A stretch of DNA of 64,000 nt from Croceivirga sp. (GTDB lineage Bacteria; Bacteroidota; Bacteroidia; Flavobacteriales; Flavobacteriaceae). The position numbers were made by a program, and so were the translations under genes. The notes beneath the pieces are model-generated. The model had not been told where the DNA came from, did no database searches, and saw only the letters and a program-made list of their open reading frames with translations. Positions 2,361 to 19,318 of the stretch are shown here, in pieces. Numbering within the stretch: the stretch's first letter is position 1; every line of letters starts with the position of its first letter. The stretch spans positions 186,001 to 250,000 of the forward strand of contig JANQQQ010000012.1 of the NCBI GenBank assembly GCA_028284935.1, read 5' to 3'.

Positions 2361-2466
2361 CTACTATTTTATGGTGTTTTAAGGAGTTTTTATTAACAAT
2401 GGCGATTTTAGGCCATTCCATACACTTTCACCTCCCCCACTCTATGGGTTCGGCAAAACAGTATTC

Positions 2467-2602
2467 CATTACCTTTTTAAAGAAGATCTTAGAAGAAATT
2501 TTTCAGGAGATACTCGGTAAACTTTCGCTTTTACCAAAGCTCAAGTTACATAACGTGGTACATTATAGAGCAGTTTAACTTCTCCATAATTTGACGTTAT
2601 GT
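2467..2602. repeat. Two-stem intergenic repeat, copy 1 (attC-like fold)
   Basis: The left part (CATTACCTTTTT, TTAGAAGAAATTTTT, GCTTTTACC-AAG) aligns with 5028-5110. The right part, 2548-2602, has nested inverted repeats: outer arms ACATAACGT and ACGTTATGT, inner arms ATTATAGAG and CTCCATAAT (one mismatch), spacers of 5 and 3 bases, and an 11-base loop. The order outer-spacer-inner-loop-inner-spacer-outer is that of integron attC sites. The outer arms deviate by one base each from the RYYYAAC/GTTRRRY core. No integrase is in the window, so the identity is uncertain. Confidence 0.5.
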
Positions 2603-2665
2603 AGAAATGATTTGGTAGTCGTTTTTTATTTTGACTTCCTTACAGTTCTATCTTAGCATCTAAGT

Positions 2666-4738
2666 TTACCAATCAAACACTTCCACGAAAAGATCATTTT
2701 TTGAATCGCCCCGCCAAAAGAATGATCGTTTAAAATAGCTTGAAAGGACCACCAGTTTACCGTCAAGATTTTCGTACACGTATTGTGGATAACCAGTCGT
2801 TTCAATCGTGGTCAATTGCCCATTCCTCCAGTTGAGCAGCTTTAACTCCCGAGAATCACGCTCATTAAGGTCAATACTGTTATCACCATTATTATTGGTA
2901 CCCAGTACAAATTCGCCATCAAGGCTTAATGAGCTTGTAAACGTAGGGAAGCTATAAGAACTGATGAAACTAAAATTGTCCGCTGAATAAATGCGTGAGT
3001 TCACCATATCAATTAGAATATTGCTAACCTCGTTGTATTCATTAGATTCCGGAAGACGCAGGGCTGCAGGGCTGCTGAAGGTATAATTCACTTCTTGTGC
3101 GTTTGTTATCTCCCCATTAGGCCCTATATTAAATAGAAAACTTCTAGTATCATTCTTTATTCCTGCCAGAATTTGATTTTCTCCGGTTCTAATGAGTTCC
3201 TCCATACGTTTAAAATTCGTACTAGGTTCGGGATCTAGTACATCGATGGTTTGTACATCCCGGCCAAACCGGCGGACCGTCCGTAATTCATCTCCGTCGT
3301 CTGCAATCACCCAAATATCATCTTTCAAATACAGTAAATCCTCAAAGGAAATAGGTTCATCTGCGATATCCCTCAATCGATATTTGTATTCAAGTGTTTG
3401 AGCATCAAAGACATGCATTTCCCATCCTACTTGCATAAAGACTTCTTTACCTTCGGTGCTTTCAAATATTCTCATCCGCTCCTCGGAGCTTGTATTAAGG
3501 TCAAATGAAGATTCTGCAATAACTTCCTTAGTAACAACATCGTACTTTTTAATTTTTTTGAAATTGTCTTCCACACTTGCTCCCCACAAATACATAAAGT
3601 TACTTTCATAGGGGTCGCTCGCCAGCAAGTAAACAGAATTCATATCGACCACTTCACTTGGTGAAAACGCAACTTCAATCGTATTATTGGTAAAACTACC
3701 GCCCACATCCAAGGAGCTTCGATATCCAAAAATATTGTACACATGAATATTATAATATGGATTATCAACTGAAGGAGGTGTCTCAATTGTAAGGCTTGTA
3801 GTTTCTTGATCTTCAATGGTGGTCATAATGATTTCTTCGGGAGAACCATTGTTGTAGGGTCTTTGGGATACCGTAATTTCGTACCGTTGAAAGTAGGTGC
3901 CTTCATAAGCTTCCCAATTGAGCTGTACCGTTGTACCTGATATCTGCGCTGGTAACATGGGAACTTTCAATACATTCAGTGAACTGGTGTTTACCGAAAT
4001 CATTTCGCTTTCAGCCAACGTACCGTTGTCGGTGAGCAATCGAAAAAAATAACACAGTTCCTGAACTGGTTCGGGATCAAGATCAACAAACTCTGTTTGT
4101 GACAAATCGGTAATGGTAGCGATTTTTACGGCCTCATTTTTTGAACAGTTATTGGACGCCCTGAAGATTTCATATTGCTGGAATCCATCACCAACATATT
4201 CGGCCCAGGTAAAAGCGATGAGATTATCGTCTTGAAATTTGTAAAAATCCTTGTTGAAGGTATCTGAATAAATATCTCGATCCCTAGGCGAATATTGGCG
4301 ACAATAAAGTTTGACCTTATCCGCTTTTTGGTCTCCATCAATATCAAAACTAGTTTCAAAATCAAACTGGGTCTCATCTAATTTCAATATGCGAATTTCG
4401 GTTTCTTCACCCGTACCATCGCTTAATTTTATTGTGTTGCCATTTAAAACAAAATCCAAACGGTTGATATCTGGAACACATGAGCTGTTCTGGTGTAAAT
4501 ACTCTACATATTCACCCGTTTCAAGGTATCTAAAATAATCTCGGCCACATCCCCCCCCGTCTTCAGGAATTGGAACGCGTTCGCCCTTGCCTTCAACTTC
4601 ATATATTGACCATGTTTTGCCATAAAATACCGCTTCTAAATCCACTGAGTTTTCTACATCAACAAATGGTGAATCATCCTTTGAACAACCTAGTAGTAGT
4701 ACAAAAAGAAGTAGGAGATAACATACGTGGTCTTTCAT
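2666..4738 (-). CDS. Lipoprotein with lipocalin-like, Fn3 and propeller-like regions
   Basis: This 690-residue protein begins with a lipoprotein signal (YLLLLFVLLLGCSKDD). Residues about 30-150 resemble the lipocalin-like domains common in Bacteroidota lipoproteins (start YGKTWSIYEVEG, with an FxLNGNTIKLSDGTGEE strand). Residues about 165-350 look like two fibronectin type III repeats (F.W..Y.GD.FQQYEIFR and LNWEAYEGTYFQRYEI). The C-terminal half has repeated YD..T.E and VFDAQTLEYKYRLRD-type blades of a beta-propeller, probably a surface-exposed binding protein. It stands alone, with repeat-bearing gaps on both sides, which fits an accessory surface gene. Ligand unknown. Confidence 0.75.
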   Translation of the reverse strand: MKDHVCYLLLLFVLLLGCSKDDSPFVDVENSVDLEAVFYGKTWSIYEVEGKGERVPIPEDGGGCGRDYFRYLETGEYVEYLHQNSSCVPDINRLDFVLNGNTIKLSDGTGEETEIRILKLDETQFDFETSFDIDGDQKADKVKLYCRQYSPRDRDIYSDTFNKDFYKFQDDNLIAFTWAEYVGDGFQQYEIFRASNNCSKNEAVKIATITDLSQTEFVDLDPEPVQELCYFFRLLTDNGTLAESEMISVNTSSLNVLKVPMLPAQISGTTVQLNWEAYEGTYFQRYEITVSQRPYNNGSPEEIIMTTIEDQETTSLTIETPPSVDNPYYNIHVYNIFGYRSSLDVGGSFTNNTIEVAFSPSEVVDMNSVYLLASDPYESNFMYLWGASVEDNFKKIKKYDVVTKEVIAESSFDLNTSSEERMRIFESTEGKEVFMQVGWEMHVFDAQTLEYKYRLRDIADEPISFEDLLYLKDDIWVIADDGDELRTVRRFGRDVQTIDVLDPEPSTNFKRMEELIRTGENQILAGIKNDTRSFLFNIGPNGEITNAQEVNYTFSSPAALRLPESNEYNEVSNILIDMVNSRIYSADNFSFISSYSFPTFTSSLSLDGEFVLGTNNNGDNSIDLNERDSRELKLLNWRNGQLTTIETTGYPQYVYENLDGKLVVLSSYFKRSFFWRGDSKNDLFVEVFDW

Positions 4739-4774
4739 GTGCTAAAGCTTAAAATTTGAAGTTTGGTGTATAAA

Positions 4775-4782
4775 CAAACATA
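4775..4782 (-). promoter_or_regulatory. Possible -7 element of the 2666-4738 gene
   Basis: The minus strand reads TATGTTTG, matching the Bacteroidota -7 consensus TAnnTTTG, about 37 bases before the start codon. No convincing -33 TTG at the normal distance was seen. Confidence 0.3.
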
Positions 4783-5027
4783 ATTTTCTCACAACAATTG
4801 TTCAGAATTTTTGATTTTTCATTTATTTCGACAAAATACATTACACACATATTTATTAATAACCAGTAGTTTTGTGAATAGGAATTCATGAACCTCACTT
4901 AAGTTCGGTTTCCCTCCCCTCCTACCCATCGGAAGGCTCAGGAGCCACCGTCGGGTCGTGTAAAAAGTGTTTATTGATGTTCTTGTTATTTGATTTCATA
5001 GGGATTCATCAATTGCCTGCGGAATGT

Positions 5028-5157
5028 CATTACCTTTTTGAAGAGAATATTTAGAAGAAATTTTTAAGGCAGTGCTGTACAAACTTTGGCTTTTACCGAA
5101 GTTCAAGACGATACATAAGCTGTACCTTATATACATTATATAATATTGTCTTATACT
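5028..5157. repeat. Two-stem intergenic repeat, copy 2 (attC-like fold)
   Basis: Aligns with 2467-2602 through CATTACCTTTTT, TTAGAAGAAATTTTT and GCTTTTACC-AAG-TCAAG. The end, 5111-5157, again has nested inverted repeats: outer ATAAG/CTTAT (5115-5119, 5150-5154) and inner TTATATA/TATATAA (5127-5133, 5137-5143) around CAT. The fold is conserved more than the sequence. The repeat ends two bases before the stop codon of the minus-strand gene at 5160, the place an attC would take in a gene cassette. Confidence 0.5.
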
Positions 5158-5159
5158 TC

Positions 5160-6989
5160 TTATTTCCAATTCAAGTAAGCTAGTCCTTTATATATTTCTT
5201 CATAGGCTACCTCTGCTATTTTTTTATGTCCTCTAATGGATGGATGCCAAGCATCCTTTGCGTTTAAATTATAAGCTTCGTCAATATTTATTTTAGAAAG
5301 AACTTCTGAGTAAACTAATTTAACTTTTGTTTCTGTGATTTTTTCACTTAACCCCTCGCAGAGTTTTTTCAATTCTACATTATATAATTTGGATAGTTCA
5401 ATCATTTTTTTCCTGTATTCGGGTCTCATAGCGACGAAGTAATGGTAGTCTTTTTCCAAAAACGGGTATAGTTTTGAATTGGTCAATTTTAAGTTTTCAG
5501 CCTCAAACCTTGCTTTAAAAAATGAATCAAAATTAATAAGGCCAAAAACATGAATTAGGCAGTTTTGCTTACTATTGATACCACCAACAACTAATCGTTC
5601 TAGTTGTATCTTATAGGATGTAATGAAATCCTCTACCAACTTTTCTAAAGAATTGTTCTCCTGTTCTTTCCAGTTAAGTGAATTATGTCCTATCCAAACA
5701 ATTACAATCTGCGGGAATTTTCCAATCAATACTTCGTTGACTTGATCTTTAAAATGCCATGTATCTGTTAGAACATCTTTAAAACTTCGTTTAAGGTTGC
5801 GATTAATTTTAGCAGTGGCACATGCATGTTGATAAGCTATAAAATGCGTATGTTCACCTAGTCTTTCGAAAACACTATTGATTCCATTAGATGAGTTTGG
5901 TTCATTGAAAAACCAATTATTTTCCCAATCTCGCCATATACTTTTCAACATATTAAACTTAGTATCTACATGAAAACTGGTGCTAAGGCTGTCTCCTATT
6001 AAAGCTATTGCCCTAAACTGATAAGGGTTGTGTTTTACTTTGATTTGAGGTCCGTTATGCACCATTACCCTCTTTCTTCTGAGATTATTGATACCTCTTT
6101 GATTTCGTCTAATATCTACATTGACGGATTTCCAAACTAAAAAGAACAGCAAGGGCCATACAGCGCAAAAAATAAATTTTTGAATTAAAGGGTTGTTATC
6201 ACCACCGAAATAGAATTGAAAATGCGATGCCAATAAAAGACTTAATGGAATCAACGGCAATAGATAATAAATCGTCAACCAGTTTTTATAACGCAATCTG
6301 GTAAATCTTCTAAAGCCTATTAAGGTTAAGCCAAGAATGCAAGCATGGCCAGTACTAATAATTAAACCTAGAGTTATTGTTAAAAATGCTTTCGTGGAAT
6401 GAGAATATTCAGAATTATTCCTAATGCCAGAATACTCACCTGGCTCCTCATCAATAAAGGAAATGAACCAACCATCAATAAAACCTGCATCGCTAAAAAA
6501 GGATTTGGCCGCATCAATGTTTGCCTTCTCAATCCCATTGTACTTCAACAGATCAATAGCTTGTTTTCTCCCTTCAATTAAATTGTCCAACAAAAACCCA
6601 AATTTTAACCATAGATAAAGTAAAAGTATAGGTACAAATAAGTGTAGCCATTTTAAGGGTACATCATTGGAAAAAAATGAAAGCTTATCCGAGGTCCTTA
6701 AAATCAGTAGAATGGTTATAATTACCAAAACTGCTTGTAATTGCAGATTACTCTCCAATAGTTTCAGGTCCTCTTTATAATCTTCTAACCGATGATTAAA
6801 TACTTCCTTCAGAGTAATGGTACTATTTTCATGAAGTAATATTGATGTTTTGCCTGATAGACTATTTTTGGAATTCTCATTCTTTTCAATATGGTAAATA
6901 ACCGTAGTGACAATACAAGCAAAAAGAAGCATTGAAAGTATATTCATAGTAACATGTGGAAGGATGAATATTTTATGGATAAATTTCAT
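5160..6989 (-). CDS. Membrane protein with C-terminal SGNH/GDSL hydrolase domain
   Basis: 609 residues. The N-terminal half has about six hydrophobic segments (near residues 13-33, 83-97, 115-135, 201-225, 238-257 and 270-287). The C-terminal half is a GDSL-type esterase: block I IGDSLSTS with the nucleophile at Ser334, a GHN motif (VWIGHNSLNW) supplying the oxyanion-hole Asn, and block V DAWHPS with Asp579 and His582. SGNH enzymes hydrolyse esters such as O-acetyl groups on sugars or lipid acyl groups. Fusion to a multi-pass membrane domain suggests envelope glycan or lipid de-esterification, which is inference. The gene is monocistronic, with the two-stem repeat directly after its stop. Confidence 0.75.
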   Translation of the reverse strand: MKFIHKIFILPHVTMNILSMLLFACIVTTVIYHIEKNENSKNSLSGKTSILLHENSTITLKEVFNHRLEDYKEDLKLLESNLQLQAVLVIITILLILRTSDKLSFFSNDVPLKWLHLFVPILLLYLWLKFGFLLDNLIEGRKQAIDLLKYNGIEKANIDAAKSFFSDAGFIDGWFISFIDEEPGEYSGIRNNSEYSHSTKAFLTITLGLIISTGHACILGLTLIGFRRFTRLRYKNWLTIYYLLPLIPLSLLLASHFQFYFGGDNNPLIQKFIFCAVWPLLFFLVWKSVNVDIRRNQRGINNLRRKRVMVHNGPQIKVKHNPYQFRAIALIGDSLSTSFHVDTKFNMLKSIWRDWENNWFFNEPNSSNGINSVFERLGEHTHFIAYQHACATAKINRNLKRSFKDVLTDTWHFKDQVNEVLIGKFPQIVIVWIGHNSLNWKEQENNSLEKLVEDFITSYKIQLERLVVGGINSKQNCLIHVFGLINFDSFFKARFEAENLKLTNSKLYPFLEKDYHYFVAMRPEYRKKMIELSKLYNVELKKLCEGLSEKITETKVKLVYSEVLSKINIDEAYNLNAKDAWHPSIRGHKKIAEVAYEEIYKGLAYLNWK

Positions 6990-7150
6990 CAGCTAAAGTT
7001 TATCATTTCAAATTTATTTTTTTCTATTTGACGCTCCTTCATCTAAATTCATAATACCACTTAAACCAATTGGAATGTTAAAACTTGACTTATTTTGAAT
7101 GTGTGAAACTTGATCTTGGGGCATTTCTCTTTTCGAACATTAACTTATTC

Positions 7151-10100
7151 CTAGTTTGGTAGTAAATTGAAATAGAACGCCTGTGTATTTTCCTTAAAAT
7201 ACCATCCCATTTCTTTATTGCCCATATCGAACTCTAGCATGGGATTTACATGGTAGTTCAAATTCTTCAAAGAGTAATGTAAGCTTGAATTCTTATCGTT
7301 CAGTTCTTTTTGGAGATTGCCCAGTGACTGTTCACTAATGGTCAGTCCCTTGATCTCAATTTTTCTTGAGTTCTTTTCAAATTCTTTCCTCCAATTCCTA
7401 TACTCGATATTACTGTCAATACTGGGGTTTTCAACGCGCTTAGAAAGTGCCAGGCCAATGGTATCAACGTTTTCAGAATCAATTTTACTGTAAGCAATGG
7501 ATTCTCCCTTAAGGTTCGCACCTTTTGACACGTTTCCCAAGGATTGGATCTTGGAAAGCGAGGTACTGTAGTTTTTCCAATTTATATATTCCAAATAATG
7601 CAATTGGAACAAATATTGGTACCTGCGCTTCCCCTTTTCGGGTTGGATCCGTACGATTTTGAGCGACTTTGATTTTGTGCCAGGTTCTAAAAAATCAACT
7701 TCAACCTTACCGGAAAGTTTTTGATTGGTTATGATGGAGACCGTAATTGAGGGTAAGGTCTTAAACTTAATGTCCTCGGCAAGTTTATTGGTTTTTGTCT
7801 TAAAAAGAGCGGGCAAGGCATTCCGTCTTAGGGGCGGCAAAAAAGCCACTGAGGCAATTCCGCCAAAAAGCCCCGTCTTGATACCTCGTAATACCTTACG
7901 GAAAGAGAACGGTGTATTGCCCTTGGGACGCCTTAAAAGGCCTGACAATCGTTTAATACTGAGATAATAGAGTGACTTGATATCTTCTACATATGAATAC
8001 TCCTTTTGATAAAACTCAAGCTTTGATATGTCTTTTTTCATGTTTTCTTGAATGGTCTCAAGATTTTTGTCCGCAATGATAGGGTGGTTCTTTACTGAAG
8101 AATGACCGGGGGGTTGCCTAAATCCCCCGTCTTGCTGTTTTAGGGACAGCAACGTACTGAATCTCCCATATTCAAAGGCATAATCCCTTGAGGGATATGA
8201 TGCAAACCCACCAAATGCCTCTACCTCGTCCCCCGGTAGCTCAATTGTTTGAAGGTCCTCTGAAATGGGGAGTATGGCCATGTATTCCGATTGTCCATTT
8301 TTACCGACCGTACCTAAAGAGAAATCAGTTAGCACCCTAAAGATCGTTTGGGCAAAAAGTACCTTTCGTTCTTCAATGTCGTTAGTATCTTCAATTTCAT
8401 CGTACCCCTCATTTAACATTTCAAATAACTCCTTGATGTCCAAAGGGGTTTTTTGAATGCCCGAGATGGTGTTTTTCTGGTCTGCAATAATTTTTGATTC
8501 TATCTTCCGCAGGGTCGCATCAGAAAATGTATGGCAATCCTCCACCTTTTCGTGACGTTCATGGCATACCTTATTCAGTTCGTTTTGAAAATATTCAATG
8601 ACGTCCCTAGTCCCCAGTGAAATGGCCCCTTGTTCAAGATTTGCCTGAATTTTGTCAAAAGCCCTGGCAATCAGCTTTATGGTTATCTTCTGATGGATGA
8701 GATCGTTTTCGTGAATAAAGGTGAACAATTCTTCCCGGAGTTTAAGACTTTGTTCTGCATCTTTGATGCGATGTTCTTCCTTTATACTTCCTTGGTTCGC
8801 CAAAAGGCCAATGGTACTCCCAACATTTCCTGACATTTTGGAAAGTTCTGTTTTTAGTGCAGTTGTGCGCAATTTGGGGTCGGTGCCCACTACTTGATAG
8901 GATGGAATATTGAACGAACTGTATTTCTCTTGCCGCACCGCCGGATCTACAAAAAGAACCAATCGATCCTCTTTTTTGTCCACTCGCTTAAAGTCTTGGA
9001 AACTTCCGATTCGAAAGGCTTCCCTTATGGGTTCATTATTGAACGTACCCCCATCTATATAAGGAAAGTTGAAAGAGTCATAGGTAATAGGCTCATAGTT
9101 ATCAGCTCTGTCCTTTTCATTAAAAAAGCTCTCTTTCTTTGGCAAGTCTTTAATTTCTTGGCACATTTTATTGAAAACAGATGGCCAATACCCTTGATAC
9201 TCTTGTTTATATCGTTTTAATACTACAGGTTCAAAAGCAAATGGGAAAGCTCCGCAAGCCAAAGCCGAAGAAGATAGGATGGCCCAAGTTTCTTTATCCT
9301 TGAACCCTAGGCTCATTTTAGGATTTCGATTAGGGTCTATTAGCCCCTTATCAGTTATCTGGAACCATCGGTTATCCGATGGTTTTTTCTGATCTTCTTT
9401 GAAGACAAAGTCAAAGACCCGTAGTTCGGCATGGTTTTGAGATCCCGTGGATTTATAGGCATTCTGCCTTAGAATTGGAGTTTTACCATTTTGTTTTTCT
9501 TCCAGTTCTATCGGTACTAGATTGGTCAATGAACAGGCAAAAACAACTCGGTTTTCATCCAATACCTTTGCGTTGCCCAAATCAAAGTCGATATCATCAA
9601 TTAAGTAGAATTGCGCGGAGTCAATTAATACTTTCCGGTGCAAAAGACCAAAAGAATCGTGGGGATTAATATCATAATTATCTAGCTTTTCCCCATATAA
9701 TTTTTTAACGGTTAATTGTTTAGTCCATATCTGGCGCTGCACTTTTTGCGCCAATTGAAGTGCTTTTAATTCCTCAATGTTTTTATGTTTTTCCGCGGTA
9801 TCAGTATCTCCATTAAAATAGGAATCTGCGAGCTCCTTAACCAACTCAGGTTCGTTGGTCTTCTCATCTTTCGATGTAGTTCCTGTTTCCTCAATCATTT
9901 CTTCACGGCTTTTACCTTCGTAGGTGGCGACCTTTGTATTGTAGATTGCCATCATAGCCTTATAATCCACTAGGGTTTTTAACATGATGGTCAAGGCTAT
10001 GGCACCTGCACTAGCGCCGCTCATGCCATCGAGGATAACCCTGTCATACGGCTTACCATCTTTATCTTGTCCATAGAGAATCAATAGTTTTAATGCTTCA

Positions 10101-10177
10101 GTAAGTGCGGCGCCCGAAAAGGAGCCTAAGCTTACACCACCGCCCATGGCCAAGCAAACTTTAAGGGTTTTGCCCAT
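7151..10177 (-). CDS. Large patatin-like phospholipase
   Basis: 1008 residues. The first 400 are a patatin domain: glycine-rich oxyanion loop MGGGVSLG (11-18), nucleophile elbow GASAG (54-58, Ser56) and the second catalytic residue in DGG (375-377, Asp375). The family hydrolyses acyl chains of phospholipids or other lipids with a Ser-Asp dyad. The insertion between elbow and DGG is long, and residues 400-1008 are unrecognised, with a short hydrophobic stretch near 800 (GLFGGIASVAFLPP). There is no signal peptide, so it should start in the cytoplasm. It is divergent from the PLD operon across a 548-base gap. Patatin and PLD-type proteins both occur as phage-defence effectors and as interbacterial effectors, but no sensor, cyclase or secretion tag is visible. 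Confidence 0.85.
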   Translation of the reverse strand: MGKTLKVCLAMGGGVSLGSFSGAALTEALKLLILYGQDKDGKPYDRVILDGMSGASAGAIALTIMLKTLVDYKAMMAIYNTKVATYEGKSREEMIEETGTTSKDEKTNEPELVKELADSYFNGDTDTAEKHKNIEELKALQLAQKVQRQIWTKQLTVKKLYGEKLDNYDINPHDSFGLLHRKVLIDSAQFYLIDDIDFDLGNAKVLDENRVVFACSLTNLVPIELEEKQNGKTPILRQNAYKSTGSQNHAELRVFDFVFKEDQKKPSDNRWFQITDKGLIDPNRNPKMSLGFKDKETWAILSSSALACGAFPFAFEPVVLKRYKQEYQGYWPSVFNKMCQEIKDLPKKESFFNEKDRADNYEPITYDSFNFPYIDGGTFNNEPIREAFRIGSFQDFKRVDKKEDRLVLFVDPAVRQEKYSSFNIPSYQVVGTDPKLRTTALKTELSKMSGNVGSTIGLLANQGSIKEEHRIKDAEQSLKLREELFTFIHENDLIHQKITIKLIARAFDKIQANLEQGAISLGTRDVIEYFQNELNKVCHERHEKVEDCHTFSDATLRKIESKIIADQKNTISGIQKTPLDIKELFEMLNEGYDEIEDTNDIEERKVLFAQTIFRVLTDFSLGTVGKNGQSEYMAILPISEDLQTIELPGDEVEAFGGFASYPSRDYAFEYGRFSTLLSLKQQDGGFRQPPGHSSVKNHPIIADKNLETIQENMKKDISKLEFYQKEYSYVEDIKSLYYLSIKRLSGLLRRPKGNTPFSFRKVLRGIKTGLFGGIASVAFLPPLRRNALPALFKTKTNKLAEDIKFKTLPSITVSIITNQKLSGKVEVDFLEPGTKSKSLKIVRIQPEKGKRRYQYLFQLHYLEYINWKNYSTSLSKIQSLGNVSKGANLKGESIAYSKIDSENVDTIGLALSKRVENPSIDSNIEYRNWRKEFEKNSRKIEIKGLTISEQSLGNLQKELNDKNSSLHYSLKNLNYHVNPMLEFDMGNKEMGWYFKENTQAFYFNLLPN

Positions 10178-10725: not shown

Positions 10726-11007
10726 ATGGATTTAGACTTCGAAGAGTTTATTGAAATACCGCGTATTCCCAGCGGTACGGCCAAGACAGCACGGCAAGCC
10801 CTTAACATCCAAAAAAAGGCCGAGGAAATAGGAGACTTAGAACTTGCAAAGCAAGCGGCCCTTGAGGCCATTATCAATGTGGATGCAGGGACGGAACCGT
10901 CGGAACTTAAACGCCTTCGCTTATTATATCGGGAGGTGTATACCACAGAAGAGTTAAAGGCCCTAGTGGCGCAAACCTTTCAAATATTGGGGGTGAATCA
11001 ACTTTAA
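10726..11007 (+). CDS. Small helical protein, first gene of the PLD operon
   Basis: 93 residues, no signal peptide, no family recognised. The middle (about 18-55) is Ala/Lys/Glu-rich and predicted helical (QALNIQKKAEEIGDLELAKQ). The C-terminus also looks helical (YTTEELKALVAQTFQILG). It resembles a small adaptor or helical bundle, but that is only composition. Coding is supported by position: it opens a run of five plus-strand genes with gaps of 10, about 18, 5 and 10 bases. The start is the first ATG in frame, after an A-rich stretch. Confidence 0.7.
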   Translation: MDLDFEEFIEIPRIPSGTAKTARQALNIQKKAEEIGDLELAKQAALEAIINVDAGTEPSELKRLRLLYREVYTTEELKALVAQTFQILGVNQL

Positions 11008-11017
11008 AAAAAATCTT

Positions 11018-11305
11018 ATGTCCTATCCAGATCTCGGTTGTTATGCGGAATGCCTGGAGTGCGAACTCTGCGATGACAATCCATTTGAAAATGATGATGA
11101 TGACATCGACCTTTTTGACTTTGATGATGACTTTGATCCCGGAAATCCTTGGGATGACCCAGACTTTTGGGACCCGGATCCGTTTGGAGGGGAAGATGAC
11201 GGAGGTCTTTTTGACGATTTCCCAACAGGAATACCACTTGGAGACACAGAGATTTCCCCTACCTGGGACGATGGTCCTGGGTTTGAATGGGGAGGTGAAT
11301 TTTAA
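11018..11305 (+). CDS. Extremely acidic small protein with Cys4 motif
   Basis: 95 residues, of which 33 are Asp or Glu and none is Lys, Arg or His. Most of the chain is Asp, Pro, Gly, Phe and Trp in short repeats (DDD-F-D, DP-D-F-W-D-P). The N-terminus carries Cys8, Cys12, Cys15 and Cys18 (C-x3-C-x2-C-x2-C), a possible metal site or disulfide cluster. Such a charge is typical of DNA-mimic inhibitors or calcium-binding proteins. As neighbour of two nuclease-family genes, a DNA-mimic inhibitor is the more attractive reading, but it is inference. No family recognised. Other frames here are open only because of the GAT/GAC-rich sequence. Confidence 0.7.
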   Translation: MSYPDLGCYAECLECELCDDNPFENDDDDIDLFDFDDDFDPGNPWDDPDFWDPDPFGGEDDGGLFDDFPTGIPLGDTEISPTWDDGPGFEWGGEF

Positions 11306-11323
11306 TGCTTGAATATAGCAGTA

Positions 11324-11599
11324 ATGGAAATGAACAAAGCAACAAAGGCCTATTTGGCCTCGCAAGAGTTAAAACGGTTGTATAATGCCTATCGTGCCAC
11401 AAGCAAGGCCCATATTTGGGTAGTAAGGAATATAGGGCATAACATCAAAAACGACGAATCCATCCCCAACGATGAGAAAATAGCGGCCTTTAGGCAGCTA
11501 CAAGAAAGGGAGGCACTGTCCATTGAAACAGATCTTGTTTTTAAAGTTCGTGCCAATCAGCTTCAAAGGCGCATTGCCGAACTTGAATCCTTATCCTAG
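11324..11599 (+). CDS. Small helical protein, third gene of the PLD operon
   Basis: 91 residues from the ATG at 11324. A TTG at 11309 would add five residues and an ATG at 11330 would remove two. The sequence is helical, with Lys/Arg in the first half (ATKAYLASQELKRLYNAY) and a heptad-like C-terminus (LVFKVRANQLQRRIAELESL), so a short coiled coil is likely. No family recognised. It ends five bases before the first PLD gene. Being mildly basic, it could pair with the acidic protein encoded just upstream, which is speculation. Confidence 0.7.
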   Translation: MEMNKATKAYLASQELKRLYNAYRATSKAHIWVVRNIGHNIKNDESIPNDEKIAAFRQLQEREALSIETDLVFKVRANQLQRRIAELESLS

Positions 11600-11604
11600 T
11601 TGTT

Positions 11605-12117
11605 ATGATACCTTTTGATAATACTAAGTTGGCCCGCGTTGATGACCGGGAATATTATGAATTCATGTTATCCATACTTGAACGGGCTAAAAGTCGGGTA
11701 TGGGCTTCCATTTTTATTTATGACATTAGACCGGGGCGAGATTTGGAAGGGCTGGTGATGTCCCTTACCACGGCATTAATAAACTGCCGGGGACGTGGAG
11801 TTGATGTTAAGGTGCTACTGGCAGGTTTTTTGCGAACCGGGGATATAGCTGTCGCCAATTTAGCTTCCGGCCTGTACCTTAGTCAGTTTAGGGTTCCCAA
11901 CCGTAGGGCAATGATTCAGAATGATGGGAGAAATGGCTCGCACGCAAAGTATGTAATTTGTGATGATCTGGCGGTTGTCGGCAGCCAGAATTGGACGGAT
12001 GATGGATTTAGACTGAATATAGAAGATGCGGTGGTCTTAGAAGGGAGGGCTGTTCACGCCATGGAAATGGAGTTTCTACGGCAATGGGATTTAGGTAAAG
12101 GCCTACCAAATAATTAA
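11605..12117 (+). CDS. Single-domain PLD-family (HKD) protein
   Basis: 170 residues forming one phospholipase D-like domain. The HKD motif is complete: His113, Lys115 and Asp120 in HAKYVICD, followed by GSQNWT at 126-131, typical of the Nuc/bacterial endonuclease branch. An earlier FIYDIRPGRD segment and VDVKVLLAG strand fit the same fold. Such proteins need two HKD motifs per active site, so it should act as a homodimer or pair with the next gene product. Without a signal peptide it is presumably cytoplasmic. Substrate (DNA, RNA or phospholipid) cannot be told from sequence; the GSxNWT context favours a nuclease. Confidence 0.85.
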   Translation: MIPFDNTKLARVDDREYYEFMLSILERAKSRVWASIFIYDIRPGRDLEGLVMSLTTALINCRGRGVDVKVLLAGFLRTGDIAVANLASGLYLSQFRVPNRRAMIQNDGRNGSHAKYVICDDLAVVGSQNWTDDGFRLNIEDAVVLEGRAVHAMEMEFLRQWDLGKGLPNN

Positions 12118-12127
12118 ACGAAACAAA

Positions 12128-13399
12128 ATGAAACTTCTTAAAGCTACGGTAGCACCCAAAGTTGCAGAATGGGGCACACTGTCCGATGACCCTTGGACAG
12201 CCCCACAACAAGATGCACTCATTACACAAATCATTGAACTCTCGGATACGATAACCCCAAGGGTTATTGAAAGTGACGGTCTTAGTGAGGAAGTCACACA
12301 AGCCTACCTTCTGGATAGGACGTTGGATGAGTTGAATTCTTGGCTCACTAGAGTGGCCGCCACCTACGGCAATTTCACCAACATGACTGCAGGCCAGTAT
12401 AGTCAAAAGAATGAAAATTACAGGCTCGGCTTGCGCAGTGGGACATTACAAGAAATAGAAGATCTCCCTCAGCTGGGAAAAAAATTGGCATTGGATGTGG
12501 GTAAGTATGTAAGCCGCAATCCTGTAATAGATGTTGATGAACTGGTTGCCGTTAAAGGTATTGGAATCAATACAATTAATGAGATCAGGGAGCTGATATA
12601 TTTAGACCAACCCGTAATTGGTTTAACCTCCCCTACCTTATCGCAATTTCTTATTTCCCCACAAATGGAAACCTGGATACCGATTTTAAATACTACCGAT
12701 TTAAATTTTTTCCTGGGTGATCGGAATACCATGATTCGGGGGTTGGAAGCCGCCCCAACATCCCATTTCGAACGCATGATGTCCATGTTACAAACAGTAT
12801 ACGAGCAAGCCCTAAGGCGTTATCCTGCCGTTAGGGGAGTAACCGGTCGTACCATAGCCTCCTGGGATGAACGTAGGAATAAGGAAGGGGAGGTCAAAAA
12901 TAGATTGGCATCCGGAAATGGCGCTATTCTTGTTAATTCTGAATATGTTTCTTTTGTGAAACAGCAGATCGATCAGGCCACCACATCAATCTACCTCATG
13001 GTTTTTTTGGGAACCACTGCTGCCGGTAATGAACTGCAGCCCGGTCCTTTGGAACTGGTCATTGCATTGGAAGAAGCTGCCCTACGTGGGGTGGATGTTC
13101 GAGTCATTCTCGATCAGGACGATGGAGGAGAACCTTATAAAAGCCTCTTTATAAATGATAACTTGGTCGACCGTTTCCGAGCAGGTGAGGTAGAAGTAAA
13201 ATTCGATAGAAAAGATACCTTGCTTCACTCAAAAGTTTTGGTGCTTGATGGACAAAAATCAGTGGTAGGAAGTCATAACTGGACCTTCAATAGCTTTAAC
13301 AATACCTATGAACTGAGTGTATACTTTGAACAGGAAGAGGTGGCTACGTCATACCAGGATCGATTCCTGGAATTATGGGACAGCTTACCAGCTAACTAA
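12128..13399 (+). CDS. Helix-hairpin-helix/PLD-family fusion protein
   Basis: 423 residues. Residues about 106-128 (LQEIEDLPQLGKKLALDVG) and 136-158 (VDELVAVKGIGINTINEIRE) look like two helix-hairpin-helix motifs, which bind DNA backbone. The C-terminal 160 residues are a PLD domain with His367, Lys369 and Asp374 in HSKVLVLD, then GSHNWT at 381-386. There is one HKD only, as in the preceding gene, so homodimer or heterodimer formation is expected. The HhH part supports DNA as the substrate. The N-terminal 100 residues are unassigned. It is the last gene of the operon, convergent with the ABC/M1 gene 67 bases away. Confidence 0.85.
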   Translation: MKLLKATVAPKVAEWGTLSDDPWTAPQQDALITQIIELSDTITPRVIESDGLSEEVTQAYLLDRTLDELNSWLTRVAATYGNFTNMTAGQYSQKNENYRLGLRSGTLQEIEDLPQLGKKLALDVGKYVSRNPVIDVDELVAVKGIGINTINEIRELIYLDQPVIGLTSPTLSQFLISPQMETWIPILNTTDLNFFLGDRNTMIRGLEAAPTSHFERMMSMLQTVYEQALRRYPAVRGVTGRTIASWDERRNKEGEVKNRLASGNGAILVNSEYVSFVKQQIDQATTSIYLMVFLGTTAAGNELQPGPLELVIALEEAALRGVDVRVILDQDDGGEPYKSLFINDNLVDRFRAGEVEVKFDRKDTLLHSKVLVLDGQKSVVGSHNWTFNSFNNTYELSVYFEQEEVATSYQDRFLELWDSLPAN

Positions 13400-13466: not shown

Positions 13467-16400
13467 CTACTCGTCCAATTCATTGTTGGTTTCAAACAAC
13501 TCATGCAACAACTGCTGTTGATGCTTTGGGGTAACCTTTTTAAAATAAGCCAATAGCTCCCTAGAAGTAACGTAGCGGTCGGTTTGGGTTTTTAATTTTC
13601 CTGTATAGCTCCGCCAATCGGTGATGAACTGTTGCAAGGCACGGTTCACTGACTCCTCCCCAATTAGTTCCTGTAACCGATACATGGAAATAGCCCCTTT
13701 ATGGTAGTATATAAAATCTTGATTTTCCACCAAGGCCAAGGACGGTTCATGGGTCGCTCGTTTTCGTTTCGTATCGTAGATTTCCTGTTGTAATGCTAAA
13801 AACTGCTGTATTTTATTCTCGGGATAATGGGCTTTCAACACCATGAGTGCTCCGTATTGTGCCAAGGTTTCCAAAACAAAATTCTTTCCCTGTACGTTGG
13901 CGGCCTCCACTTGCATACCGAACCATTGGTGGGCCACCTCATGGGCCGTGATATAAAAAGCCATATCCACATCTGTGGTGTCATCAATATCCAAAACAAA
14001 TCCCAAAGCTTCCGAAAATGGTATGGTGTTGGGCAAGGACTGGGCATAATCCGCATAACGTGGCACTTCCATAATCCGCAATTGCTGATATTGATAAGGA
14101 CTGAAGTTTTTACTGTAATAATTCAATGATGCCTTCATGCTTTCCATCATCCTATCCAAATTATAGGTGTGGGTTTTATGATGGTAGATTTCCAATGCCA
14201 CGGGTTGGGATGGGGTATCAGCAGGTTTCCACATGGCACTTTGCACCTCATAATCCGCTGAAACGATGGAATAAAAATTGATGATCGGATGATTGGTCTT
14301 GTAGTGAAAGTAATTGCGGTCATCTTCGGTCCATTGCCTTTGCAATATTCCTGGAGCTACTACTGTTTGGTCTTTATTGGTGCCTACGGTAACTTCAAGC
14401 ATAATACCATTGGAATCGCTGCCTGAACGTGCGATGATCAACTCGTTTTCGTTTTCAATGGTCGCCTTATTTGACCTTTGCGGTAAACCCATCGCTAAGC
14501 GTTCGACTGGATGGTGTAGTTCATATTTTTTGTTGTATCCCAAGCTTGGGAATAGGGTATTATGGAAAAAGGTGCCGTTGTACACCAGTTGGGTGTCTGA
14601 AGGATCATGTTCAAAACCTTGGGGCGCAAATGATTGTTTAAAGTCCATTTGCAGGGAGGCCTTTGGCGGTAAGGGGGTTGACAAATGGTACATGATATAA
14701 TCGAATTCGCTATGGGTGCTGTCAGCTTTCGCCCCACCTTCAAAAATCACCTCCTTAAGATCCAAATGGGAGGCGAGTCGTTTTTGTATATGGATTGCAG
14801 TAATGGGTTTATCCGTTGTATTCATCAACTGATAGGTTCCTTTGATGTCATAACTTCGGGTTTTAGGGTAGAGTTCAATGGCCAATTTTGCAGCAATGAT
14901 TTTGGGCTGTGGAAGGTACTCCAAGGGTTTTAACGTTCGTTCGTAGTTCGCTCTAAACGCTTTCTCCTGTTCCGACGTCCAATACGTGTTCAATATATTG
15001 GTGTTGTAAAAAATGTAACCGCCCAGCAGGAACCATACCACCACGGCGAACGTCAAAAAAAGTCCTTTGCGTCCTATCAGTTGGTGCCGTAGGGTACCCA
15101 TGCGCTTCCTTAATGGGGTAATTGCCCCCCTGTTCATAAGTAGGGCACTAAGAACGATCACAATACTTCCAAAAACCAACCAGTAGGCCTTTACCCAGAG
15201 ATATGGGGCCAAGAAGTGACCGTACCCATTCATTTCGGAATAGGTACCCAGGGGTTGTCCCCCAAATTTGTACAAGCTATGGTGAAATCCTAAAAACTCG
15301 GAACCCACATTGACAATGAAGAAAATTAAGGTGAGAAAGATGCCGATAAACTTGTTCTTAGCAATTACTTGAAAGAAAAATGCCATGCACGTATACAAGG
15401 TCAGGAAAGGAAGAATTTCGAGAAAGAATCCTGAAAAGTAGACCTTCAAATCGAAATGGTAATACCCATTCGCTACTTGAAAGAGAATCCCGGCAACAAT
15501 TAAGGTCAACATAAGAACGACATAAATGCCATGAAGTGCCAAGAACTTACTCGTCAGTACCATTACATTGGTTACTGGCATAGCATCATTGAGGAGATAC
15601 TGTTTGATGGTACGTTCTTTCCATATCAATTCGCTCGAATAAAAGAGCAAAATGGCAATGAAAAAGTAGAGCGACATTTCTTGCAGCTCCGCGACGATAA
15701 AATGAGTAGTGGGAAAACTATCCACCCCATAAACGGTACCTAAATTAACCGAATTACTGATGATGATAACTATGCCACAGATTACAATGGCCCAAAACGA
15801 GGTCTCTTTGAGCAAGGATAAGATATAGAACTTGATGAGCTCAAACCACTGCCTATATTGGGCCCCATAGCCGTACTGTTGTGAAACTTTAGGAATGGGA
15901 TGGTCATTGTTTGAATTCTCTTGGACCATCACGGTATCCCCCACTGCGCTCTTCTTACCTTTCTTAGCGGGTACACTAAACGAGAATTGCCGAAAACCGA
16001 CAAAAAGAATAAGAATCCCCAAGGCCACCCAAAGTAGTTTATTGTGCAATAAAATTCCATGTAAGGTGATACCCAAGGTATTGCTGTCTTCAACGGACCA
16101 GTCCTTGGCCACTTGGGTCAAGGTAGTGAGGGAAAATGGATCCAAAAGCCCTTGTAGATACTCATGGGTAATCGCTTTGGTAAGCAGGAAAATGACGAAT
16201 AGCACAAGGCCTTGGGTGTAGACCACCAACAACTTTTTACTCAACATTCCCGTTACAAAGAATGTACTTGCCCCAAAGAATAAGATGGGCAAAACGACCA
16301 CTACGAAGGATTGGACATAGCTGAATGCATTAAATGGCAGCATTTGTTCCGGCTGATGCCATGGCATTAGGGAGCCGACCATCATGCCCCATAACAATCC

Positions 16401-16748
16401 ACTAAAAATAAGCAACAGGACCACAAAGGACCCTAAAAACCTGCCTAACAAATAATCCCGCTTTGTAATGGGATTGACATATACCAAGGGTTCAATGTCA
16501 TATTGCACATCTCGTAAAACGGGAACGCCCATAATCATCGATACCATAATCATAAAAATGCCGGTAATGGCACCCATGGTTTTTGCAATAACCAGCGGGG
16601 CGTTTTTTTTCATTAGACCGATTTCCACGCCTTGAAAAATAAAATCCACGCCTACCATGGAAAAGAGGAACAAAAACCCAAAGAACACATAGGTTTCAGG
16701 CCTATTTATACGATATTTAAGTTCAAATTTGAATAGTTCAAACCACAT
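13467..16748 (-). CDS. ABC-2 permease fused to M1-family peptidase domain
   Basis: 1093 residues. The first half has repeated hydrophobic segments typical of two ABC-2 permease modules (residues 1-265 and about 300-590, separated by a charged linker). After residue 600 comes a periplasmic M1-type gluzincin domain: HEVAH with His936, Glu937 and His940 as zinc site and Glu960 in LETLAQY as likely third ligand. This permease-peptidase architecture is known in Bacteroidota and proteobacteria without a firm substrate; peptide export or cleavage is assumed. The upstream ATPase gene ends 6 bases before its start, so the two form one transporter. A LytS/LytTR pair is divergent. Confidence 0.88.
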   Translation of the reverse strand: MWFELFKFELKYRINRPETYVFFGFLFLFSMVGVDFIFQGVEIGLMKKNAPLVIAKTMGAITGIFMIMVSMIMGVPVLRDVQYDIEPLVYVNPITKRDYLLGRFLGSFVVLLLIFSGLLWGMMVGSLMPWHQPEQMLPFNAFSYVQSFVVVVLPILFFGASTFFVTGMLSKKLLVVYTQGLVLFVIFLLTKAITHEYLQGLLDPFSLTTLTQVAKDWSVEDSNTLGITLHGILLHNKLLWVALGILILFVGFRQFSFSVPAKKGKKSAVGDTVMVQENSNNDHPIPKVSQQYGYGAQYRQWFELIKFYILSLLKETSFWAIVICGIVIIISNSVNLGTVYGVDSFPTTHFIVAELQEMSLYFFIAILLFYSSELIWKERTIKQYLLNDAMPVTNVMVLTSKFLALHGIYVVLMLTLIVAGILFQVANGYYHFDLKVYFSGFFLEILPFLTLYTCMAFFFQVIAKNKFIGIFLTLIFFIVNVGSEFLGFHHSLYKFGGQPLGTYSEMNGYGHFLAPYLWVKAYWLVFGSIVIVLSALLMNRGAITPLRKRMGTLRHQLIGRKGLFLTFAVVVWFLLGGYIFYNTNILNTYWTSEQEKAFRANYERTLKPLEYLPQPKIIAAKLAIELYPKTRSYDIKGTYQLMNTTDKPITAIHIQKRLASHLDLKEVIFEGGAKADSTHSEFDYIMYHLSTPLPPKASLQMDFKQSFAPQGFEHDPSDTQLVYNGTFFHNTLFPSLGYNKKYELHHPVERLAMGLPQRSNKATIENENELIIARSGSDSNGIMLEVTVGTNKDQTVVAPGILQRQWTEDDRNYFHYKTNHPIINFYSIVSADYEVQSAMWKPADTPSQPVALEIYHHKTHTYNLDRMMESMKASLNYYSKNFSPYQYQQLRIMEVPRYADYAQSLPNTIPFSEALGFVLDIDDTTDVDMAFYITAHEVAHQWFGMQVEAANVQGKNFVLETLAQYGALMVLKAHYPENKIQQFLALQQEIYDTKRKRATHEPSLALVENQDFIYYHKGAISMYRLQELIGEESVNRALQQFITDWRSYTGKLKTQTDRYVTSRELLAYFKKVTPKHQQQLLHELFETNNELDE

Positions 16749-16754
16749 GATTTT

Positions 16755-17627
16755 CTAGTTTTGGTGGTTAATTTGCGAGAAATAAACTGCTTCAAGACTA
16801 GTGTCGATAGCCAGAAATCCATCCCCTGGAGGTACATCACTGATAATTTGAATCCTAGGCTTGCCCAAAAACCGCTTGTCATTGATGACATTGTAGTGCG
16901 TTATGTAGCTTTTCAATTCAGAGGGGTTGATGGTCTTTTGATATACCTTACCTTGCAATCCTTCCATGAGCTTTAGCGGATTTCCCTTTAATACCACCTG
17001 GCCTTGGTTGATGATGGCCATTTGTGTGCATAGTTCCCTTACATCATCCACGATATGGGTGGAGAGCACAACAATGATATTTTCGGCGATTTCACTTAAG
17101 AGGTTATGGAAACGATTACGTTCCTTAGGGTCCAGGCCAGCTGTGGGTTCATCAACAATCAATAGTTTTGGACTATTGAGCAAGGCTTGGGCAATACCAA
17201 ATCGTTGTTTCATCCCCCCAGAGAAGCCACCTAAATGCCGCTTTCTTGCATCATATAAATTGGTCTTTTGGAGTAAGGCACCAACCAGCTCCTTTCGTTC
17301 ACCAGCATGGGCAATCCCCTTGAGAACGGCAAAGTGATGGAGCAGCATCTCTGCGGAGATTTTTGGGTACAACCCAAATTGCTGGGGCAAATAACCGAGC
17401 ACCTTCCTAAGGGAATGCTTATTGGTTTGGACATTGATATCGCCTAATAGTATCTTGCCTTCATCGGCATCCTGTAGGGTGGCGATGGTTCGCATTAAAG
17501 TAGACTTTCCCGCTCCGTTTGGTCCCAATAGCCCAAACATTCCCGTAGGGATTTCAAGGGAAACGTTTTGTAATGCCTTTACCCCGTTGGCATACGTTTT
17601 GCTCAAGTTGTCAATGACGAGTTTCAT
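16755..17627 (-). CDS. ABC transporter ATP-binding protein
   Basis: 290 residues with all ABC ATPase motifs: Walker A GPNGAGKST near 36-44, Q-loop in YLPQQFG, signature FSGGMKQR, Walker B LLIVDEP followed by TAGLDP, and the H-loop STHIVDD. The C-terminal 70 residues are a family-specific extension. It belongs to the CcmA/multidrug-type subfamily that pairs with ABC-2 permeases, and its partner is the adjoining permease-peptidase gene. A minus-strand TACGTTTG element lies about 27 bases before the start codon. Transported molecule unknown. Confidence 0.93.
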   Translation of the reverse strand: MKLVIDNLSKTYANGVKALQNVSLEIPTGMFGLLGPNGAGKSTLMRTIATLQDADEGKILLGDINVQTNKHSLRKVLGYLPQQFGLYPKISAEMLLHHFAVLKGIAHAGERKELVGALLQKTNLYDARKRHLGGFSGGMKQRFGIAQALLNSPKLLIVDEPTAGLDPKERNRFHNLLSEIAENIIVVLSTHIVDDVRELCTQMAIINQGQVVLKGNPLKLMEGLQGKVYQKTINPSELKSYITHYNVINDKRFLGKPRIQIISDVPPGDGFLAIDTSLEAVYFSQINHQN

Positions 17628-17653
17628 AACTGTTCGTTTTTTGATTGTGGCCT

Positions 17654-17661
17654 CAAACGTA
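17654..17661 (-). promoter_or_regulatory. Possible -7 element of the ABC operon
   Basis: The minus strand reads TACGTTTG, a match to TAnnTTTG, 27 bases before the ATPase start codon. The -33 position is T-rich without a clear TTG. Confidence 0.35.
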
Positions 17662-17742
17662 GATATGGACTCTTTTGGTAAAAAGTTGTAGGGACGTATT
17701 TTATAGTAGCGGTGATGTGATTATCCAAGAGAATGGTCAATG

Positions 17743-17793
17743 ACGTTTGTCCCACTTTTTGATGGGTTTCGATTACGTTCTTGGCCGTTTGTC
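17743..17793 (+). promoter_or_regulatory. Possible LytTR-type binding repeats
   Basis: ACGTTTGTC at 17743-17751 and CCGTTTGTC at 17785-17793 are direct repeats 42 bases apart, with a weaker TACGTT at 17774-17779 in between. They resemble the LytTR half-site with an ACGTT core and lie in the gap between the ABC operon and the LytTR system. The spacing differs from the usual ~21 bases, so the call is tentative. Confidence 0.3.
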
Positions 17794-17834
17794 AAGGAAT
17801 TTGCCCATAGCGTTTAATTCTGCTATTATTGACC

Positions 17835-18626
17835 ATGAATTTTAAGTTTCCAAAAGGCGAGGCACGGTTATCGATTGGGGTTTTACGGATATCACTGGTC
17901 GCTATAGGTATCATCATTGTAGTATTCAATGATACCTTGGGAAAGCTGGAAGGTTTTGTGGAATTTCTGCTCCTCTATTTTATCACGATTTGTATCGTTG
18001 TCTTTCATTGGTTGTTTGTGAACATTAAAGGGATCATCAACCTAAAAAATGAAAAGGCAAAGACAGAACTGAAGCACTTGCAATCCCAAGTGAATCCGCA
18101 TTTCTTTTTTAATATGTTGAATAATTTGTACGGATTGGTGGATAAGGACAGTGAAAAAGCAAAAACACTAATTTTAAAACTGTCTGAAATGATGCGGTAT
18201 AGCATATATGAAGGACAAGAAGCACAGGTAACCTTAGGAAAAGAAATTGAATTTCTCCGGAATTATATGGAACTGCACCGAATGCGCTACCATAAGAATA
18301 TTTCCATTGATTTTGATGTTCAAGTGGAAAATCAACACCTCAAACTTGCCCCGCTCCTTTTTATTATTTTGGTAGAAAATGCCTTTAAGCATGGGGTGGA
18401 AAAGCTACGACAGCATGCTTTTGTGAAAGTGGCCATTACATCGGAACAACATACAGTGTCCTTAACCGTTGAAAATAATTTTGATGGTGAAGAAGAAAAG
18501 GGTGAAACAGGTATTGGTTTGCAGAACTTAAAAAGAAGGTTGGAACTGGCCTATCCAAAAAAACATTACTTAACACATTCGGTTAAAGGAACCGTTTACA
18601 TGGCTCAATTAACGCTGATCTTATGA
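17835..18626 (+). CDS. LytS-type sensor histidine kinase
   Basis: 263 residues from the ATG at 17835 (a TTG two codons earlier is possible). Two membrane segments (about 12-31 and 41-63) are followed by the His_kinase (PF06580-type) domain with His89 in QVNPHFFFN, then an ATPase domain with the N-box VENAFKHG and a G-box GIGLQNLKRRL. There is no large external sensor domain, which fits kinases sensing through a transporter or membrane stress. It overlaps its response regulator by four bases (ATGA) and is divergent from the ABC/M1 operon, the likely target. Confidence 0.92.
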   Translation: MNFKFPKGEARLSIGVLRISLVAIGIIIVVFNDTLGKLEGFVEFLLLYFITICIVVFHWLFVNIKGIINLKNEKAKTELKHLQSQVNPHFFFNMLNNLYGLVDKDSEKAKTLILKLSEMMRYSIYEGQEAQVTLGKEIEFLRNYMELHRMRYHKNISIDFDVQVENQHLKLAPLLFIILVENAFKHGVEKLRQHAFVKVAITSEQHTVSLTVENNFDGEEEKGETGIGLQNLKRRLELAYPKKHYLTHSVKGTVYMAQLTLIL

Positions 18627-19318
18627 TGATCAATTATATCATAGTGGACGACGAACATATCGCCCACGATATTGTTAAAGGATATTGCGATGCTTTGCCC
18701 AATCTTATCCTTATTCAGCATTGTTACGATGCCATTGAGGCCATGGAATGTTTGCGGAACCATAGGGTCGACTTGGTCTTTTTGGATTTGAACATGCCAA
18801 AACTTAAGGGGTTCGCCTTTTTAAAGTCGTTGCCGAACCCGCCAAAAGTAATTGTCACCTCGGCATATCAAGAGTACGCCTTGGAAGGCTATGAGCTCAA
18901 TATTGTTGATTATTTGCTGAAACCCTTCAGCTTTGAACGTTTTGTAAAGGCCATCAATAAACTTGAGATGCCAGCGGTACCCAAGGTGGTTTCCTCCATA
19001 AAAATGGAAGAAGAACGATTGTTTTTGCGTTCCAATAAAAAACATGTTCAGGTAAAACTCAATGACATTCTGTTTGTGGAATCCACCGGAAATTATATCA
19101 AAATCGTTTTGGTGGACCATGAAATCCAAGTACGGGAAAAGATTTCTGAAATCATTAAAACGCTACCTGAAAACGATTTCATTCAAGTCCACAAATCGTT
19201 CGTAGTTGCAAAGGGGCACATCAACACTATTGAGGGAAACAGGGTAATGATCAATGACTTTACCATACCTATCGGAAAAACGTTCAAGCACCATGTGAAC
19301 ACCCTATTCCGAGGATGA
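18623..19318 (+). CDS. LytTR response regulator
   Basis: 231 residues. Residues 1-120 are a receiver domain with the acidic pair Asp9/Asp10, phospho-acceptor Asp55 in VFLDLNMP and a conserved Lys in LLKPFSF. Residues about 135-231 are a LytTR DNA-binding domain (LFVESTGNYIKI, FIQVHKSFVVA, IPIGKTFK). LytTR proteins bind pairs of ~9-base direct repeats. Its ATG overlaps the kinase stop, giving translational coupling. The nearest candidate target is the divergent ABC/M1 operon. Confidence 0.94.
   Translation: MMINYIIVDDEHIAHDIVKGYCDALPNLILIQHCYDAIEAMECLRNHRVDLVFLDLNMPKLKGFAFLKSLPNPPKVIVTSAYQEYALEGYELNIVDYLLKPFSFERFVKAINKLEMPAVPKVVSSIKMEEERLFLRSNKKHVQVKLNDILFVESTGNYIKIVLVDHEIQVREKISEIIKTLPENDFIQVHKSFVVAKGHINTIEGNRVMINDFTIPIGKTFKHHVNTLFRG

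Follow-up and report, generated by a model that had tools for sequence, protein, structure and literature searches.

Nucleases of the phospholipase D (PLD) superfamily that carry a single HKD motif are dimeric, and their active site lies where the two chains meet; homodimers are the described norm, and PLD3 and PLD4 hold both HKD motifs in one chain (PMC5714352; PMC10783504). Nuc, NucT and Zucchini (MitoPLD) are homodimers of one gene product; PLD3, PLD4 and the virion nicking-joining enzyme (30ie) have two asymmetric HKD lobes. Here we examined a 64,000-nucleotide stretch of a Croceivirga sp. contig (hereafter the window), in which positions 10726-13399 of the forward strand hold a 2.7 kb cassette of five co-directional open reading frames (ORFs): three for small proteins (P0001, P0002 and P0003), followed by two for the PLD-family proteins PLD1 and PLD2 (Table 1). 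An earlier sequence-only reading had described these as five closely spaced genes of one strand, with one complete HKD motif in each of the two PLD proteins, and this description was borne out. It had also taken the pair for two nucleases; what stands of this is that the two single-HKD PLD genes and the small genes do form a unit, but the products of the pair are probably the halves of a single DNA-cutting enzyme and not separate nucleases. Tentatively, with confidence a little below even, we view the whole as a cassette that spreads horizontally and encodes a PLD-superfamily nuclease of two subunits.

PLD1 and PLD2 matched the Pfam family PLDc_2 with 51.5 and 77.8 bits, respectively, against a cut-off of 27, and both window proteins contain one complete HxKx4D...GSxN motif per chain. 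Across the 13 loci described below, the catalytic letters of the superfamily signature HxK(x)4D(x)6GSxN were present in every PLD2 and in 12 of the 13 PLD1 proteins. The spacing between the HKD Asp and GS is asymmetric, being 6 residues in 13/13 PLD2 and 5 residues in 10/13 PLD1 proteins (read by eye for loci L053 and L054). Counted from the residue numbers in PMC10783504, the spacing in PLD3 is 6 in the first motif and 5 in the second. The PLD1 profile scored higher on the C-lobe than on the N-lobe of two-HKD enzymes (40.4 versus 29.0 bits for 30ie, 29.9 versus 26.1 for 7e0m and 24.6 versus 19.4 for PLD3), and the PLD2 profile higher on the N-lobe than on the C-lobe (36.6 versus 18.6, 42.2 versus 39.1 and 33.5 versus 19.0 for the same three). 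PLD1 resembles the C-lobe of all two-HKD enzymes compared and PLD2 the N-lobe of PLD3/PLD4 and 30ie, with the difference that the lobes would here be separate genes. Since the known single-HKD nucleases form dimers, PLD1 and PLD2, which have diverged, carry one HKD motif each and are always found side by side, make good heterodimer candidates.

DrmC of DISARM shares with the cassette a PLD domain with an HKD motif and gave weak to moderate profile matches, but the scores of 40.8 (PLD1) and 39.0 bits (PLD2) lie below the NCBIfam cut-off of 133, and DrmC has neither an HhH (helix-hairpin-helix) region nor small genes; membership of DISARM was rejected on the DrmC score. No DrmA, DrmB or methylase was seen among the window ORFs of at least 150 residues (read by eye, without a hidden Markov model scan), and DrmD was matched by one of 125 flanking ORFs of relatives. 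The Tle5-type phospholipase D of type VI secretion systems, which we take to carry two HKD motifs in one chain, differs from PLD1 and PLD2 with their one motif each. A described match to the pair or the cassette, which the sequence-only reading had likewise been unable to name, was found in none of Pfam, NCBIfam, PADLOC, PHROGs, the PDB sequences or the literature (bioRxiv preprints and most subscription papers lying outside the search). The five-gene cassette is rare and apparently undescribed.

For the distribution of the pair, genome contigs were scanned with two PLD2 queries, that of the window and that of a same-genus metagenome-assembled genome (MAG; A1); this gave 28 loci, 10 of them with PLD1 and PLD2 side by side (L010 and L004 are one contig). 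Fifteen of the 18 loci without a counted pair were inspected, L029, L030 and L032 being left out. The window, these ten loci, and L053 and L054 from later surveys make up the 13 loci considered here; two further genomes (G790 and G833) were excluded since their match was confined to the PLD domain and the regions hold longer PLD proteins without the pair. In all 13 loci, one of them archaeal, PLD1 lies directly 5' of an HhH-bearing PLD2, and an ORF of ∼90-110 residues precedes PLD1 (as a fused tail in L024), the genes farther upstream varying by type. All five genes in the order of the window (type A) were found in Arenibacter algicola (Bacteroidota; L005), Paraliomyxa miuraensis (Myxococcota; L006) and a gammaproteobacterial MAG (L007), an order kept across distant genomes being what the sequence-only reading had named as support for a system. 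Type B, comprising a P0010-like gene, an ORF of ∼104-110 residues, PLD1 and PLD2, occurs in L004, L011 (Boseongicola), L012 (Woeseiaceae), L014 (Gemmatimonas) and L054. The remaining loci have a Prok-JAB protein, a 135-residue protein with a hydrophobic stretch and a 97-residue ORF before the pair (L008); a YkuD protein and a 97-residue ORF before the pair and an SNase-family nuclease after it (L009, a Methanophagales archaeon); a Peptidase_M23 protein with a tail just before PLD1 that may correspond to the small ORF (L024); and a 100-residue ORF before the pair (L053). The first-gene enzymes of these loci may belong to the unit or be neighbours by chance. In 9 of the 13 loci the pair occurs without the three small genes of the window, which goes part of the way against the idea that the PLD genes keep their small partners, but all nine have another small ORF (in one, the fused tail) at that position.

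The YkuD L,D-transpeptidase domain directly before the cassette in the Methanophagales MAG (L009:7000-7641) lies in an archaeon, and archaea lack peptidoglycan; mis-binning is possible. In Arenibacter, a Zn_dep_PLPC protein of 711 residues and a 377-residue protein without Pfam match (L005:3743-7039) are co-directional with the cassette and 62 bases 5' of it. The 135-residue protein of L008 was considered as a P0001 homologue, but homology was not detected. The MBL gene P0011 of G001 is oriented divergently to the module and was seen at no other of the 13 loci. L013:6480-8480 encodes a 666-residue protein matching both P0011 and a PLD domain, followed by a 183-residue single-HKD PLD; its architecture differs from that of the P0011 gene at G001.

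The PLD1-PLD2 order is fixed, and the pair is conserved, co-inherited and patchily spread. A tree built from 40 PLD domains placed all 13 PLD1 rows in one clade (96/88) and all 13 PLD2 rows in one group (80/94) that includes two long-branched rows of L019, from which we conclude that the pair arose by a single ancient duplication or pairing. The type A rows are monophyletic for PLD1 (100/100) as well as for PLD2 (100/97). Those of type B are monophyletic for PLD1 (100/99); for PLD2 four of the five cluster together (91/87), the placement of L004 being unsettled. The two long-branched rows correspond to overlapping single-HKD PLD ORFs without an HhH region (L019:5576-6672). Identity distances of PLD1 and PLD2 covary (Mantel r 0.836, with 0 of 10,000 permutations as high), part of this correlation stemming from the division into types. 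Since the distribution does not follow host taxonomy, the genes of the cassette seem to travel together, and the span of type A over Bacteroidota, Myxococcota and Gammaproteobacteria suggests that the complete set has been transferred horizontally. We saw neither a stand-alone PLD1 nor a stand-alone HhH-PLD2, the queries being based on PLD2 so that solitary PLD1 genes could escape. These results bear on the rather unlikely alternative that PLD1 and PLD2 are two separate homodimeric nucleases of one pathway. The complete HKD motif in each protein by itself (with the PLD1 exception in L053), the homodimeric norm among described enzymes and the match of both profiles to Nuc (1byr; 6ehi and 4ggj were matched as well) would suit such an arrangement, and one motif per chain in a PLD fold is what Nuc, NucT and Zucchini have. 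Two diverged genes that are together in 13/13 loci, in fixed order and with covarying distances, one of them with an HhH region and both with small partner genes, are unlike the single-gene homodimers.

PLD2 also carries the feature that suggests DNA as the target, namely its HhH region. Positions 73-182 of profile A4 matched ComE operon protein 1 (E 4.2e-16) and EEPD1 (E 1.2e-23); the Pfam HHH_3 score was 20 bits, below the cut-off of 27. HhH regions are DNA-binding. The likeness to ComEA and other HhH DNA-binding proteins extends to this region, but the comEA model gave 21.2 bits against a cut-off of 152, and in PLD2 the HhH region is fused to a PLD domain. EEPD1 apart, ComEA was the nearest of the PDB sequences, which would suit a module for DNA uptake or processing in which PLD2 acts as a ComEA-like binder and the pair trims incoming DNA; a parallel exists in NucT, which is implicated in natural transformation (PMC5714352). 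PLD2 has no membrane anchor or evident signal, no conserved competence gene lies beside the loci, and the cassette is rare and patchy, all of which make this module improbable, the least likely of the readings considered here.

Conservation of the small frames at the protein level, which the sequence-only reading had made a test of its proposal, was evident. Identities of the window proteins to those of L005, L006 and L007 were 60%, 39% and 40% for P0001, 73%, 56% and 53% for P0002, and 59%, 40% and 37% for P0003; that of PLD2 to L005 was 45%. The proportion of nonsynonymous differences (pN) was below that of synonymous differences (pS) in all 15 comparisons (five genes and three pairs among the window, L005 and L007); pS was saturated in 13 of them, so the dN/dS ratio is omitted. 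Together with the order kept in L005, L006 and L007 this indicates that the five genes are more than a chance arrangement, and an incidental operon or false small ORFs were rejected, as all five frames are kept in three other loci of three phyla. P0002 is, as had been noted, extremely acidic, with 33 Asp and Glu, no Lys or Arg and 4 Cys in 95 residues (net -33); its C-x3-C-x2-C-x2-C motif lies near the N-terminus and all four Cys are invariant in 4/4 sequences. P0001 and P0003, called helical in the sequence-only reading, give that impression from their sequences. P0001, P0002 and P0003 had no Pfam family above cut-off, were unnamed by NCBIfam, PADLOC and PHROGs, and matched no PADLOC system component at E ≤ 1; these three conserved small families carry no annotation. 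A compact cassette with three such families and a spread across phyla makes this a directly testable system and not a guess from one genome.

The heterodimer, its substrate and its role are what we infer from sequence. PLD1 and PLD2 would share one active site where they meet, each supplying an HKD motif, with the ComEA-like region of PLD2, by homology, holding the DNA. As a guess, the enzyme might be docked, placed or restrained by the products of the ORF preceding PLD1 and of the gene or genes farther upstream, P0003 possibly in the docking role, and in type A the acidic P0002 could, more speculatively, sit in a basic groove as a DNA mimic until released. If PLD1 and PLD2 do share one active site, they would be a naturally divided form of an enzyme class whose described members are homodimers or single chains with two lobes, and activity would depend on both genes and their small partners.

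Several observations weigh against a shared active site of this kind. The N-lobe is also favoured by a control profile built from six ordinary single-HKD PLDs (33.8 versus 27.2 bits on 7e0m, and in its best stretch on PLD3 and PLD4), which is clearly unlike PLD2 only on 30ie (24.3 N, 29.7 C), and on OPG057 the best stretch of PLD2 was the C-lobe in 2 of 3 records. The specific part of the lobe argument is therefore the C-lobe likeness of PLD1; for PLD2, whose preference is partly common to the control, the argument is weak. The PLD1 spacing is 6 rather than 5 in L008, L009 and L053, and PLD1 of L053 has Gly in place of the HKD Asp; because the corresponding Asp of PLD3 is said to sit 20 Å from the active site (PMC10783504), this substitution need not kill the enzyme. 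Adjacent PLD genes without an HhH region also occur in L013, L019, L020 and L022, so that lying side by side is weak evidence by itself. Homology among the small ORFs of types A, B and C was not detected, and they were rejected as one family, which leaves position as the argument for a common role. The best single-sequence PDB match of PLD2 is the phospholipase 7e0m, and a lipid substrate is thus possible. This match agrees with a distinctly unlikely alternative, a lipid- or envelope-attacking effector cassette in which the pair acts as a phospholipase and is delivered along with hydrolases of the wall or membrane. Neighbours of the pair include YkuD (L009), Peptidase_M23 (L024), Prok-JAB (L008) and Zn_dep_PLPC (L005) proteins, and a patatin-like protein and a GDSL lipase are encoded near the window operon. 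The patatin gene, however, is divergent and 548 bases away, such neighbours do not recur across the 13 loci, the HhH region speaks for DNA, the gene downstream of the pair in L009 is an SNase-family nuclease, and the N-termini of PLD1 and PLD2 have no strongly hydrophobic stretch and no evident signal peptide.

Returning to the two-subunit nuclease, we regard intracellular conflict, either attack on invading DNA or self-killing, as its likeliest role, since evident signal peptides are absent and the cassette is rare and patchy; we make this choice cautiously, with less assurance than the enzyme itself. A defence role is possible. That the set would suit phage defence, as had been suggested, found an unsupportive context. 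From the flanks of the relatives 131 ORFs were chosen by coding score, and 125 were searched with PADLOC and Pfam, six shadow-frame-like ones being left out. At 1e-10 PADLOC gave eleven families, each in at most 3 of the 125 ORFs; these flanks hold mostly housekeeping genes and no defence context (raw counts without a background rate), a point that also counts against the proposed conflict enzyme. No neighbour family beyond generic ones recurs across the 13 loci. Searches of viral, plasmid and phage sequences gave generic PLD domains or nothing, by scans that need exact short peptides and could miss copies, and a virus or plasmid origin is unsupported. An unlikely extension of our view is a new mobile conflict system of bacteria and archaea, in which an obligate heterodimer of the PLD proteins would be a nuclease with its active site split between the chains and with the HhH region as a DNA clamp. 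The control proteins of this system would be swapped between types (P0001 with the acidic Cys protein; P0010-like; JAB with a membrane protein; YkuD; M23 fusion), and its acidic protein would be a metal- or redox-sensitive DNA-mimic lock.

The rarity of the pair was apparent in nine overlapping samples, searched at thresholds of 1e-12 to 1e-40 around centres picked for having the pair, with at most two genomes per sample carrying it. Genomes with a match, centres included, numbered 2/99 among relatives, 1/395 in the phylum and 1/249 in the family; 4/235 in the phylum of G674, where the pair itself was present only in G674 and G788; 2/274 in the class of G675; and 1/149, 1/150, 2/201 and 1/205 in further samples. 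Nine carrier genomes searched whole contained no second full-length copy at E ≤ 1e-10.

Table 1. Coordinates of the cassette and its motifs in the window
Feature	Coordinates	Strand	Evidence or remark
P0001, 93-residue small protein, first gene of type-A cassette	10726..11007	+	conserved in L005, L006, L007; pN<pS
P0002, 95-residue acidic protein	11018..11305	+	conserved in L005, L006, L007; 4 invariant Cys columns
Cys motif of P0002, residues 8-18	11039..11071	+	invariant columns C8, C12, C15, C18
P0003, small basic protein directly 5' of PLD1; 96 residues (91 from ATG 11324)	11309..11599	+	start TTG 11309 or ATG 11324/11330
PLD1, 170-residue single-HKD PLD-domain protein	11605..12117	+	PLDc_2 match; PLD1 clade
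HKD motif of PLD1, residues 113-129; D to GS = 5 residues	11941..11991	+	translation
PLD2, 423 residues: N-terminal, HhH, middle region, C-terminal single-HKD PLD domain	12128..13399	+	PLDc_2 match
ComEA-like helix-hairpin-helix region of PLD2, ∼residues 105-165	12440..12622	+	profile match
HKD motif of PLD2, residues 367-384; D to GS = 6 residues	13226..13279	+	translation

With P0003 starting at the TTG the intergenic gaps are 10, 3, 5 and 10 bases; the second becomes 18 bases, and the gaps 5-18 as had been reported, with the in-frame ATG at 11324, which is nearer to the P0003 start of the relatives. A frame overlapping P0002 (11043-11312) was set aside, since the P0002 frame is the conserved one. 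A promoter and terminator scan gave sites no more numerous than in shuffled sequence.

The G+C content of the five genes is 0.43-0.47, compared with 0.34 for window positions 1-7150 and 0.42 on the right side. Similarity to G003, of the same genus, runs from 13573 to 19309 and ends there. Between an adenylate-cyclase-like gene and an M1/ABC gene the window genome has ∼20 kb of other genes versus ∼5 kb in G003, the equivalence of the cyclase genes being judged by eye. L054 is flanked on both sides by transposase-like genes (by eye), and one IstB_IS21 was found among the 125 flanking ORFs. The patatin-like protein of the window has 1008 residues (7151-10177, minus strand) and 32.9 bits with Pfam Patatin against a cut-off of 27.7, and falls far below the TIGR03607 cut-off; a link to the operon is unsupported, no patatin homologue having turned up beside the other loci, and P0006 had no matches outside the window. 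Left of the operon, an AT-rich block (G+C content 0.28-0.37) occurs at window 1-7150 and at L067:4000-10000, and synteny with G003 breaks there; in it, L067:5083-9453 encodes a 1456-residue protein with no Pfam family above cut-off. Window positions 5160-6989 (minus strand) encode a 609-residue protein with an N-terminal half that is hydrophobic by eye and a C-terminal GDSL lipase domain.

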